From: Bacteroidales bacterium
GTDB lineage: Bacteria > Bacteroidota > Bacteroidia > Bacteroidales > Prolixibacteraceae
NCBI GenBank assembly: GCA_031285325.1
Contig: JAITWJ010000091.1
Location: forward strand, 1-50,285
Direction of reading: 5' to 3'
Length of the DNA stretch: 50,285 nt
A model generated the notes under the pieces. The model saw nothing but the letters and a program-made list of their open reading frames with translations. It was not told where the DNA came from and did not search any database. Below are positions 3,806 to 42,246 of this stretch, in pieces. Each line of letters opens with the position of its first letter. Positions within the stretch are counted from its first letter, which is position 1. Position numbers and translations under genes: made by a program.

Positions 3806-4384
3806 CTATTCAGGGGAAGAGGGGGAATTGTCTATTTTGAATCCGATAGGGTTTCTGGGGCGGTTAATCCGGTTGTTCTTAGATTGCAGTTCGGCTAGTG
3901 TTTCGTTGATGAGTTCGAGTTGGATGCGGGTATCTTCATTGATATCGTTGTAGTCAGTAAAAACTTTTTCGATGTATTGTTTTAATTCCATGACTTCGTT
4001 TTGCAGTTCTTTTACATTGTTTACAGACGGGTTTGTCATTAATTGACGCATGGCGACAAATGCTCTCATAATGCTGATGTTTACAGATATGGCAATATCG
4101 CTGCCCAGTAGCCCCGACAGCATTGCAATTCCCTGCTCGGTGAAAACATGTGGTAATTTTCTTGTGCCGCCCCAACTTGATGTCACAATTTGTGATTTCA
4201 AGTTTCTAAATTCCTGTGGCGTAAGTTGAAACATAAAATCGGGCGGGAATCGTTTTATATTACGTTTGACCTTTTGGTTTATTTCTCGTGTTTCAACCTG
4301 ATACATCTCGGCCAAATCGAAGTCGAACATTACGCTAAAGCCTCTGATTTCGTGTATTTTGTTTTTAATAACCTGCAATTCCAT
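3806..4384 (-). CDS. ORF6N domain-containing DNA-binding protein
   Basis: 192 aa; IRGFSVMFDFDLAEMYQVETREINQKVKRNIKRFPPDFMFQLT...FTEQGIAMLSGLL is characteristic of the ORF6N/KilA-associated domain. Confidence 0.85.
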   Translation of the reverse strand: MELQVIKNKIHEIRGFSVMFDFDLAEMYQVETREINQKVKRNIKRFPPDFMFQLTPQEFRNLKSQIVTSSWGGTRKLPHVFTEQGIAMLSGLLGSDIAISVNISIMRAFVAMRQLMTNPSVNNVKELQNEVMELKQYIEKVFTDYNDINEDTRIQLELINETLAELQSKNNRINRPRNPIGFKIDNSPSSPE

Positions 4385-4426
4385 GCACTGATTAAATTTT
4401 TGTGCAAAGGTACAAAAGAATTAAAA

Positions 4427-4620
4427 AATCTCTTAATTTTTAATTCTGAATTATTCCTCAAGGTGCTACCGTTGGGTTGGGTTATGCTCGGCTTTTAGTC
4501 GATAGCTCTGCTCTACTAAAGAAAGCCCTTAATTATTCCATTTCTTATTCCACAGGCAACGCCGCACCCAGCGTGCGGTTATAAAAGTCCAGCCCATTCA
4601 GGCTGTATTACCGAGTATAA
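4427..4620. repeat. Left flanking repeat (order B-A) of DUF4160-DUF2442 cassette 1
   Basis: Contains ccacaggcaacgccgc...gtgcggttataaaagtccagcccattcaggctg and caaggtgctaccgttgggttgggttatgctcgg, both recurring at 5463-5663. Confidence 0.8.
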
Positions 4621-4640
4621 TTTTTTTAATTGATTTAATG

Positions 4641-4672
4641 TTTTAGGATATAAAATTATATCCTTATCTTTA
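4641..4672 (+). promoter_or_regulatory. Predicted promoter with 20-bp near-perfect palindrome in the spacer (candidate operator)
   Basis: AGGATATAA-AA-TTATATCCT (4645-4664) immediately precedes a -7-like TATCTTTA (4665-4672). Confidence 0.45.
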
Positions 4673-4699
4673 CAGCATAATAATAAAAATGGAAAATAT

Positions 4700-4942
4700 A
4701 TGCCAACTATATTATTTTTATTCGGGCTTCGATTTTATTTCTATACAAGAGATCATAATCCGATTCACGTTCACGTTGAAAGCAGATACGGTGAAGCCAA
4801 GTTTGAAATAGAAAATGAGATAGTTCTTGTTTATAACCACGGGTTAAAAGTAAAAGATTTAAGATTGGCGGAAAGTGTTTTAGAGGAAAATAAAGAAAAT
4901 TTCATTAACGAATGGCGTAAAATCTTTAAAAATGGAAATTAA
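4700..4942 (+). CDS. DUF4160 domain-containing protein
   Basis: 80 aa; FYTRDHNPIHVHVESRYGEAKFEI motif typical of DUF4160. Confidence 0.85.
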   Translation: MPTILFLFGLRFYFYTRDHNPIHVHVESRYGEAKFEIENEIVLVYNHGLKVKDLRLAESVLEENKENFINEWRKIFKNGN

Positions 4943-5339
4943 AATTAGTAAATTATGGTTCGAGGGTAACAAGATTTTTATCCTTACGGAAAAAGGTGAA
5001 ACGTTGTGGCAATCTCTTTTGTGGTACAGTCGTCTTTTAGACGCAACCAAAGAACAGAGAAAAAACTACCGCACTACGTTTTCAGGGATACATTGGCCTG
5101 ATATTGACGAAGATATGTCTTACGAGAGTTTTTACTACAATAACTTGGAACCTGAAGGTATTTCCCGCCTGTTTATTACACATCCGGAATTGAACGTATC
5201 GGCTGTTGCCCGCCGTTTGGGAATTCAACAAAGCCTTTTAGCTGCATATATTCGAGGAACAAAAAAACCTTCCATCGATCGTGAAAATGAAATTAAAGTC
5301 GTTATAAGGCAAATAGGTAACGAATTGGCAAAATTATAG
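4932..5339 (+). CDS. DUF2442-like protein with C-terminal helix-turn-helix
   Basis: 135 aa; N-terminal DUF2442-like fold, C-terminal NVSAVARRLGIQQSLLAAYIRGTKKPSIDRENEI resembles an HTH; overlaps the DUF4160 ORF by 11 bp. Confidence 0.75.
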   Translation: MEIKISKLWFEGNKIFILTEKGETLWQSLLWYSRLLDATKEQRKNYRTTFSGIHWPDIDEDMSYESFYYNNLEPEGISRLFITHPELNVSAVARRLGIQQSLLAAYIRGTKKPSIDRENEIKVVIRQIGNELAKL

Positions 5340-5462
5340 TTTAGAGCGAAAAATAATTATAGCTGCCACCAATATTTTAATAGGTGTTGTTTTATCCAAT
5401 TGCCGGGTCATGTATATTTATTACATTGAATTTCTGTAATAAACTGAATTATACCGTGTTTT

Positions 5463-5663
5463 CAGCTGATAGCCCTCTTAAAGAATGCCCATAAAGGGGA
5501 CTTTTATTGTTTCATCTCTTAGTCCACAGGCAACGCCACGCCGTGCGGTTATGAAAGTCCAGCCCATTCAGGCTGGTTTACTGAGCATAAATCTCTTAAT
5601 TTTTAAGTATTTCCCAAGGCGTTGTTATTGGGTTGGGTTATACTCGATTTTAGCCGATATATC
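5463..5663. repeat. Right flanking repeat (order A'-B') of DUF4160-DUF2442 cassette 1
   Basis: gtccacaggcaacgccacgccgtgcggttatgaaagtccagcccattcaggctg plus ccaaggcgttgttattgggttgggttatactcga match 4427-4620. Confidence 0.8.
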
Positions 5664-5724
5664 CACTAATTATTAATTTACAATTGTTAACTGTCAACTG
5701 TCAATTAAGTGTCGCGTTCATGAA

Positions 5725-6297
5725 TTAAACCAATCCGGTAAATCCCATAAACGCGATAGCCAATATACCCGCCGTTATTAGCGATACAGGCACACCTTTC
5801 ATTCCTTCCGGAATATCGGCGAGTTCGAGTTGTTCTCTTATTCCTGCAAGTATTACCAGGGCAAGCCCGAAACCAATAGCTGTTGAAGCTCCGTAAATAA
5901 CTCCTTCGAGCAGGTTGTAATTTTTCTTGATAACGAGTATTGCAACTCCCAGTACGGCACAGTTGGTTGTTATGAGCGGAAGAAAAATACCAAGCGCCTG
6001 GTAGAGTGGCTTACTTACTTTTTTCAGTATTATTTCTACCATTTGAACAAGCGAAGCAATTACAAGAATAAAAGTAATTGTTTGCATGAAACTTATTCCT
6101 AACGGATTAAGTATGTATATCTGAATAAGATATGTTGCTATTATTGCTAATGTTATAACAAATGTAACAGCTACCGACATTCCGATTGCCGTACTTATTT
6201 TGTTTGAAACACCAAGAAACGGACATATTCCGAGAAACTGCGCAAGAACAACGTTATTAACGAATACTGCCGATATTATTATTAATATGTATTCCAT
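5725..6297 (-). CDS. rnfA: Electron transport complex subunit RnfA/RsxA
   Basis: 190 aa membrane protein, [19 protein letters not shown] and NCAVLGVAI motifs; operon position. Confidence 0.95.
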
Positions 6298-13758: not shown

Positions 13759-14016
13759 ATGCCCGAAATTAGCAGATTTTTTGGGATAATCATTTCCCTA
13801 TACCTAAAAGACCACAACCCGCCGCACATTCATTTTTCGTATGGCGAGTATCAGTGCAAAATAAGTGTTATAGACCGAATCGTTGACGGGCAGGCGCCCG
13901 CAAAAGTTGTCGCAATGGTAAACAAATGGCTCGACCTGCGCGAACACGAAGTCCTTGCACTTTGGGACAAAGTACAAAAAGGCGAACCCGCCTCCAAAAT
14001 AGAACCATTAAAATAA
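13759..14016 (+). CDS. DUF4160 domain-containing protein
   Basis: 85 aa; ISLYLKDHNPPHIHFSYGEYQCKISV, the DUF4160 signature. Confidence 0.9.
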   Translation: MPEISRFFGIIISLYLKDHNPPHIHFSYGEYQCKISVIDRIVDGQAPAKVVAMVNKWLDLREHEVLALWDKVQKGEPASKIEPLK

Positions 14017-14023
14017 AAACAAT

Positions 14024-14257
14024 ATGTTACGAGTAATAGATGTCGATTATCTGAAAGATTACAACCTTGCTGTAACATTCAACAACGGCGAAAAAAAAAC
14101 AGTAAACCTCAAACCGTATCTTACCGGCCGCCTGCTTGGCGAACTGGCAGATAAAAATAAATTCATCCAGTACGGCTTAACCCCCGTTACCATCGAATGG
14201 GCAAACGGAGCCGATTTAGCCCCCGAATTCCTCTACGAAATAGGACTACCTGTTTGA
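14024..14257 (+). CDS. DUF2442 domain-containing protein
   Basis: 77 aa; VDYLKDYNLAVTFNNGEKKTVNLKPYL...FIQYGLTPVTIEWANGADLAPEFLYEIG. Confidence 0.9.
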   Translation: MLRVIDVDYLKDYNLAVTFNNGEKKTVNLKPYLTGRLLGELADKNKFIQYGLTPVTIEWANGADLAPEFLYEIGLPV

Positions 14258-15174: not shown

Positions 15175-15397
15175 CTTCTTACATGAATATCATAAATTCT
15201 ACATTGAATACTGTACATTCTTGATGGAATTACATATATTCTATGTGGATTTATGCATATTCTTCACGGAATACTGTATATTTTATATTGAATAATGCAT
15301 ATTCTTGATGGAATTACGTATATTCTATATGGATTACTGTATATTATTTATGGAATATGCAAAATTATACATGAAATAATGTATATTCTTTATGATT
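15175..15397. repeat. Degenerate tandem array, exact 21-bp period, about 10 units (array 1)
   Basis: Units start at 15196, 15217, 15238, 15259, 15280, 15301, 15322, 15343, 15364 and 15385; consensus about ATTCTTNATGGAATNMTGTAT. Confidence 0.9.
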
Positions 15398-36131: not shown

Positions 36132-36425
36132 TTTTTTTTGAACTCTTCCTTGAAATACTTCGCGGTGGTTTCTCAACTCTGCGAAAGCAATTTCGCCCTC
36201 GTTGGCGTAATTGCCCGTTTCGTAATTGCGAACTGCAAGCTTGCGAAGCAGGAAACAATCCATAGCAATTATATGACGAAATGCATGTCCGCCGTTTGGC
36301 CGTTACACGGGCTATGCAAGTCGCAAATCGTGCTTCACGGTGCGCCCAACGGTTGCCTTGAACATTCCCGCAGGCTAAATTTGGGTATATTTCGTCTGTT
36401 CCATGCCTGCAAAGGCAGTTTATTG

Positions 36426-36660
36426 TACCGAACAGCGTCATTCGGTACAATATTTTTTTATTATTATACTGAATGGATCGATTTGATATAATATTTTTTC
36501 AGGATTATACCGAATGATGTGATTTGGTACAATATATTTTTATTATTATACCGAACGGCGCCATCCGGTATAAGCCCAAGCTGGGGCGGAGTCAAATCGC
36601 GCTATTTGGTGCCTGCCCGACTTGGGGCGGGAGCGAATGACGCCTTTTGCCCGTGCCGTC
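36426..36660. repeat. Tandem dyad array, exact 41-bp period, about 6 units (array 3)
   Basis: Unit starts 36426, 36467, 36508, 36549, 36590, 36631; core TACCGAAY-N6-ATYCGGTA in units 1, 3 and 4, degenerate in the others. Confidence 0.85.
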
Positions 36661-41342: not shown

Positions 41343-41387
41343 GATGAATGGTATATAAATGTTAATAAACGGCAGGGTAAACAGGCG

Positions 41388-41576
41388 TCCGGAACTCCGG
41401 AAAGTATAACCGAGGGGTCGGCGAGGGTATCCGGAACTCCGGAAAGTATAATCGAGGGGTCGGCGAGGGTGTCCGGAACTCCGGAAAGTATAACCGAGGG
41501 CTCGGGCAGGGTGTCCGGAACTCCGGAAAGCATAACCGAGGGGTCAAACATAGTATCCGGAACTCCGGAAAGGCTC
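41388..41576. repeat. Tandem array, exact 42-bp period, 4 full units plus partial (array 4)
   Basis: TCCGGAACTCCGGAAAG begins at 41388, 41430, 41472, 41514 and 41556. Confidence 0.97.
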
Positions 41577-42246
41577 CCATAAGGGTGTGCGGTTATGCAG
41601 CCAGTTTTTGACAGTACCGGCCGGCGGCAGAAGGCCAGCAGTATAGACACAGATAAGGTGTTACAGTTCAGCATATATGGTTGTGTTTACGGCATTCAGC
41701 ATAAAAAGCGTTCATGCAATACTGCCAATACTGCAATAATAGCAAACTGTTTTCAATAAACCTGAACTGTGGGGAATAAATTCGGGGAAAAAGCGCTGAT
41801 TTTTTACCCCTGACGGGTGAAAGCTGGCGGGCGGGAAGGTACTGCAGTGGGCAATGCAGGTAGATTTTACTGTCTTCGCAGCCATTGCTGATGCTGAATA
41901 CATGTAATTGAAAATAATTCTTATTCAATATATTTTATTTTCTTAAAAATTATTCCAATGCCTTTTGTTTTTTGATATACTGTTTTTTTTGACTGCGGTG
42001 TGTAACAGATTAACAAAACAGTTTTTACAATGTAAAAATACAAATTAAGGTAATAATAACCGGTAATGTTAATACTACGCCTTTACTCTCTTAATTTGAA
42101 ATGCGGTGCAAAATGCTGTAAAGGCTAAAATTTACTGTAACATAAATAACTGTCATAACTTTTCAACTTTAACTTGTTAGTTATTGCACCGGCAAATAAA
42201 TCAAACCTCTATTATTTTAATTATTTTTGCTCGAAACTGAGGTGAA

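Follow-up and report, generated by a model that had tools for sequence, protein, structure and literature searches.

A predicted toxin–antitoxin (TA) operon of the dhiTA type occupies the 3' flank of the rnf operon in a Bacteroidales bacterium (family Prolixibacteraceae), and it was probably acquired by recombination at repeated, hairpin-rich intergenic DNA, with the direct repeats around it as the trace of that event, a reading that we favor with modest confidence. It builds on what is observed at this and related loci, namely the repeats themselves, the identity of the genes, the conserved gene order, the operator class, the recurrent bracketing of such operons by repeats, and single-copy counterparts elsewhere. 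The locus was analyzed within a 50,285-nt stretch of DNA (contig JAITWJ010000091.1 of assembly GCA_031285325.1), referred to as the window in its entirety. A preceding sequence-only reading had described a two-gene DUF4160–DUF2442/HTH cassette of TA type, bracketed by direct repeats in the order B-A and A'-B', and the profile matches, alignments, shuffles, and sliding test given below uphold both the gene assignments and the bracketing.

The first gene of the operon (4700–4942, plus strand) encodes a predicted DhiT-like toxin of 80 aa with a DUF4160 domain (PF13711, E = 3.7e-18, above the gathering cut-off), and the second (4932–5339, plus strand) a predicted antitoxin of 135 aa that combines a DUF2442 domain (PF10387, E = 2.2e-12) with a C-terminal HTH; the predicted toxin gene comes first and overlaps the antitoxin gene by 11 nt. 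The same domain pair, with the toxin gene first and the genes overlapping by a few nucleotides, constitutes DhiT–DhiA of Dickeya dadantii 3937, a DUF4160/DUF2442 type II TA system for which toxicity, neutralization, and autorepression were demonstrated (PMC8198452). Unlike the Dickeya operon, the one in the window encodes an antitoxin with an extra C-terminal HTH, has an operator class observed with this HTH type only, and is bracketed by direct repeats. Moreover, the toxin matches the NCBIfam DhiT model with an E-value of 1e-9 and only 38.9 bits against a curated cut-off of 100, and it is thus regarded as a homologue of the Dickeya protein and not as its equivalog. The domain pair, the dhiTA precedent, and the operator class all support the proposed TA nature of the unit, and judged by its sequence the bracketed operon is predicted to be a dhiTA-type TA module whose first product would be toxic and whose second would neutralize it.

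The toxin has an invariant HxH motif and an invariant Trp residue. Its structural model (pLDDT 92.1) has no significant fold match in the PDB, where no solved relative was found. The model of the antitoxin (pLDDT 90.9) comprises a beta-rich N-terminal and a helical C-terminal domain, and its best PDB fold is that of NE0471 (2AUW), a putative DNA-binding protein, at a low whole-chain TM-score of 0.36 and 13% identity (E = 9.5e-4). NE0471 presumably consists of a DUF2442-like N-terminal domain followed by a C-terminal HTH. Matches of the antitoxin to BamC, with an E-value of about 0.004, were rejected as apparent chance. Most full-length homologues of the antitoxin have a DUF4160 gene next to them. 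A dhiTA pair was also noticed in a faecal phage record (L306, MT836146.1, 2236–2996), with both proteins about 62% identical to those in the window, and a search for plasmid-borne relatives returned distant DUF2442 matches only.

The operon is flanked by a divergent gene on the left (3806–4384, minus strand) and a convergent one on the right (5725–6297, minus strand). The former encodes an ORF6N-domain protein (PF10543, E = 2.4e-35) that directly adjoins the TA genes and matches PDC-S05 of PADLOC (1e-52), a candidate defence family. The latter, taken from the ORF list, is an rnfA-like gene and the last of the rnf operon, with A'-B' located in its 3' flank; its homologues across the family are about 74% identical. 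A look for the empty site in the same genus and family met no close relative, and RnfA is at best 74% identical there. Assembly G000, to which the window belongs, has a size of 2.16 Mb, while the majority of genomes assigned to its genus measure 3–8 Mb.

Directly upstream of the toxin gene, the palindrome AGGATATAAAATTATATCCT (4645–4664, plus strand) is a predicted antitoxin operator of the class AGG-N14-CCT, right after which a −7-like element, TATCTTTA, occupies positions 4665–4672. Of 15 HTH-type dhiTA operons, 11 have such a palindrome over the promoter region, at a distance of 21–35 nt from the start codon (0.69 expected), and none of 13 DUF2442-only operons has one upstream, counts made on the same loci from which the pattern had been derived. 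The phage copy (MT836146.1), which was examined after the pattern had been set, carries two adjacent palindromes of the operator type. The DUF2442/HTH antitoxin would be expected to repress its own operon through the palindrome.

All repeats around the cassette have the same orientation and are given here on the plus strand. On the left, B (4426–4498), a REP-like element with a CAAGG...TTGGG dyad, is followed by the S-A copy (4482–4643, A core 4529–4638), which contains two hairpins (4561–4579 and 4586–4608; RNA fold z = −3.4); on the right, S'-A' (5449–5612, A' core 5503–5606) is followed by B' (5589–5659). A and A' are 81% identical over 110 columns, and the identity of B and B' is about 76%. 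In local alignments, the left flank (4482–4643) matches the right one (5449–5612) with a score of 132.5, compared to a maximum of 41.5 for 300 shuffles, and B matches 5589–5653 with a score of 64, where shuffles reach no more than 29.5. A sliding test along the 50 kb of the window gave 101 bits for the bracketing of the cassette, whereas every other 640-bp segment remained at or below 27.4 bits. The homology extends further than the sequence-only reading had drawn it, and a stretch that it quoted as shared, gtccacagg, reads ttccacagg in A. Rfam contains no match to the repeats above its gathering score, and the interval 4400–5700 stays empty even at E ≤ 1. Other repeats in the window include an imperfect intergenic tandem repeat with a 21-bp period (15176–15385, TTCT...GGAATTAC...TA), tandem palindromic ATTATACCGAA...TTCGGTACAAT units with a 41-bp period (36422–36573), and direct repeats with a 42-bp period that are GC-richer than their surroundings (41384–41593).

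The left copy stops within the start of a B unit (B-S-A-b5') and the right copy starts within the end of one (b3'-S'-A'-B'), which places the operon at the position of a middle B unit or at the point of B-S-A-B' into which a circle with one S-A unit would have been integrated. Judging from this order, the arrangement is compatible with an insertion inside a repeat unit. A and A' share at most 22 bp of exact identity (at 4584 and 5554), and recombination at this point would take out 970 bp, with B-A-B' as the product, so that the clean removal of the cassette proposed by the sequence-only reading holds on paper. Excision of the cassette today is possible. It may be rare, since an exact identity of 22 bp or less is short for efficient homologous recombination.

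The wider distribution of the repeats helps to define their nature. In its own genome, the full A/B sequence occurs only at the two places flanking the cassette, and degraded A-like cores are found on two other contigs. A collection-wide pattern scan detected A-type repeats with the core GCAACGC...GCGGTTATGAA at unrelated sites, in seven loci of insect-gut Bacteroidales; the remaining seven matches resemble chance matches within coding DNA. No DUF4160 or DUF2442 gene was present in the DNA fetched around these seven insect-gut loci, and two genomes of the family have B-type repeats in multiple copies. Hence, A and B are REP-like in character and not ends specific to the cassette, and their resemblance to dispersed REP-like repeats indicates that the repeats at this locus may predate the TA genes. 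The sequence-only reading had tied A and B to the cassette and suggested a search for the same repeat beside other DUF4160 genes, and in this respect it is not supported: A-type repeats occur in other Bacteroidales at unrelated sites without DUF4160, which for A is the outcome that the reading itself had named as a refutation, and neither the other DUF4160 loci of the same genome nor those of other genomes are flanked by them. Specifically, A/B is absent from a second DUF4160 pair and from a degraded third in the same genome. A and B as the ends of a repeated mobile unit were rejected, as the other DUF4160 loci of this genome lack them and the repeats vary between genomes. The second dhiTA pair lies in the window (13759–14257) and consists of a DUF4160 gene and a short DUF2442 gene without HTH, flanked by 26-nt copies of AATTGTCAGCTGTCCATTATTAATTG that are 92% identical.

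We compared 59 DUF4160 loci from the order with 75 transcription units of comparable size picked at random, using a simple ORF procedure for gene calling, and counted a locus as bracketed when its direct repeats reached 45 bits or more. By this measure, 11 of the 59 DUF4160 loci are bracketed and 48 are not, compared to 2 of the 75 controls (Fisher p = 0.0025). RnfA loci had also been considered as a control (1/28 bracketed), but because rnfA is within an operon, random small transcription units were taken instead. Among small transcription units in the vicinity of TA modules, 8 of 51 are bracketed, which is indistinguishable from the DUF4160 loci (p = 0.80) and is partly explained by some of these units being TA modules themselves or tandem duplicates; bracketing is thus a property of accessory neighborhoods and is not proven to be specific to dhiTA. 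The bracketing repeats are unrelated in sequence between loci, their copies are 78%–98% identical, and most occur just twice in a genome, each time next to the TA genes, apart from the arrays described below and one repeat that has a third copy at another site. At six loci, the repeat includes the 3' end of a neighboring gene (nqrF, dinB, bioA, a dihydroorotate-dehydrogenase-like gene, and two others). Several of the repeats are terminator-like hairpins, and the one at locus L216 is promoter-like.

Two TA modules are stacked behind nqrF at locus L180 (G462:C71, 3703–5583), where the 3' end of nqrF is duplicated and the native terminator displaced. In the congener G194, the nqrF 3' end is single and unduplicated. 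The copy beyond the TA genes in G462 comprises the final 92 nt of native nqrF together with the original terminator, at 95.7% identity to G194; a new terminator stands behind intact nqrF, and synteny resumes farther on. G194 itself has a different, ATPase-like accessory gene just beyond its nqrF terminator, indicating that the nqrF 3' flank is a variable site in its own right. At the bioA locus, the native end is likewise kept in the far copy. Three loci are TA arrays in which one repeat separates the modules: a dhiTA, Gp49-HTH (HigBA-like), and YoeB array with three copies of a 60–79-bp repeat between its units (L182, G488:C50, 2592–5141); an array of dhiTA, RelE-like, and nucleotidyltransferase-like modules with the same 61-bp promoter-like repeat beside each unit (L302, G312:C252, 1586–3977), this repeat having four copies that are confined to the one contig; and a PIN-toxin/dhiTA array. 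With regard to the suggestion of a small mobile or excisable unit, the higher frequency of bracketing at dhiTA loci than in controls and the one single-copy relative speak in its favor, whereas the idea of A and B as specific mobile ends has to be given up.

If the operon was acquired by recombination, a molecule carrying it together with one S-A unit may have recombined into a resident B-S-A-B' array; alternatively, only one end may have been joined through homology, with illegitimate joining at the other. Neither route would require a recombinase of its own, and none of the cassette genes and immediate neighbors encodes a recombinase, integrase, or transposase. The reverse crossover between A and A' would be opposed by the TA genes themselves, since decay of the antitoxin after their loss would free the toxin. 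The chief rival to this insertion account is a REP-like cluster entered by chance. REP and BIME repeats are mobilized by RAYT transposases (PMC2817692, PMC3686654), and A and B share with them their palindromic nature, their intergenic position, and their partly multicopy occurrence in related Bacteroidales. In this view, a palindromic cluster that a REP-associated Y1 (RAYT) transposase had spread in the past may have received the TA genes at random, or repeats may have landed on both sides of them, and the bracketing would have no connection to the arrival of the operon. The two hairpins in A, the A-type cores at the seven insect-gut loci and on two contigs of the same genome, and the multicopy B-type repeats in two family genomes all agree with this scenario, as does a dhiTA locus of the same genus that is adjoined by hairpin repeats and a RAYT-like gene. 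Unlike the high-copy REP/RAYT systems, however, the genome has full A/B sequences at two places only and a few degraded relatives, and a Y1 (TnpA-REP) transposase (PF01797) is absent from its 97%-complete assembly. Furthermore, the repeats at other dhiTA loci are mostly unique to their locus and often consist of coding 3' ends, which REP spread leaves unexplained. We consider a chance neighborhood rather unlikely, but still a serious contender.

Two further explanations assign the repeats a function. They could have been selected as terminators or insulators flanking the TA operon instead of being an insertion scar, in line with the terminator-like hairpins among the bracketing repeats and with the hairpin-forming A in the rnfA 3' flank. 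The duplicated coding 3' ends of nqrF, dinB, and bioA and the promoter-like repeat of L216 are not terminators, though, and make this explanation improbable. Even less credit is given to a site-specific mobile cassette, for example an integron cassette whose ends resemble attC, or else a transposon or MITE ending in A/B, served by an enzyme in trans. A small TA operon with a hairpin-forming repeat on either side, and the arrays of differing TA modules with one repeat between them in other genomes, superficially resemble cassette arrays. Against this, the repeats differ completely between loci and include the 3' ends of unrelated genes, their 78%–98% identical copies do not represent a common end, the element does not recur at the other DUF4160 genes of the genome, and inspection by eye found no attC-like core in A.

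TA loci with empty counterparts are also known from plastic intergenic sites of E. coli, where REP sequences are present at one TA insertion site, and a review of these loci terms the integration mechanism of small chromosomal TA modules unelucidated (PMC7167474). In comparison with the E. coli sites, the Bacteroidales loci offer duplicated repeats, captured 3' ends, and a pair of native and new terminators, which together outline a candidate route. Searches of the open-access literature returned no account of captured 3' ends bracketing TA modules, although this does not establish priority. We tentatively propose, as a possibility that we would not yet call probable, that TA modules of Bacteroidales spread as recombinase-free cassettes, each of which carries or creates a copy of the 3' end, terminator, or intergenic repeat that it targets. 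Insertion by homology would spare the host gene, modules could stack into arrays of unrelated TA systems separated by the same local repeat, and the dhiTA operon of the window would be one instance of this process. For a little-studied TA family, the pairing of the DUF2442-HTH antitoxin with its predicted operator provides a model of autoregulation. If the proposal is true, the locus-specific direct repeats, the captured nqrF, dinB, and bioA 3' ends, the displaced native terminators, and the repeat-separated TA arrays on which it rests would reveal a concrete and testable route of TA integration, in which modules are inserted by homology without a recombinase and their loss by the reverse crossover is opposed by addiction.
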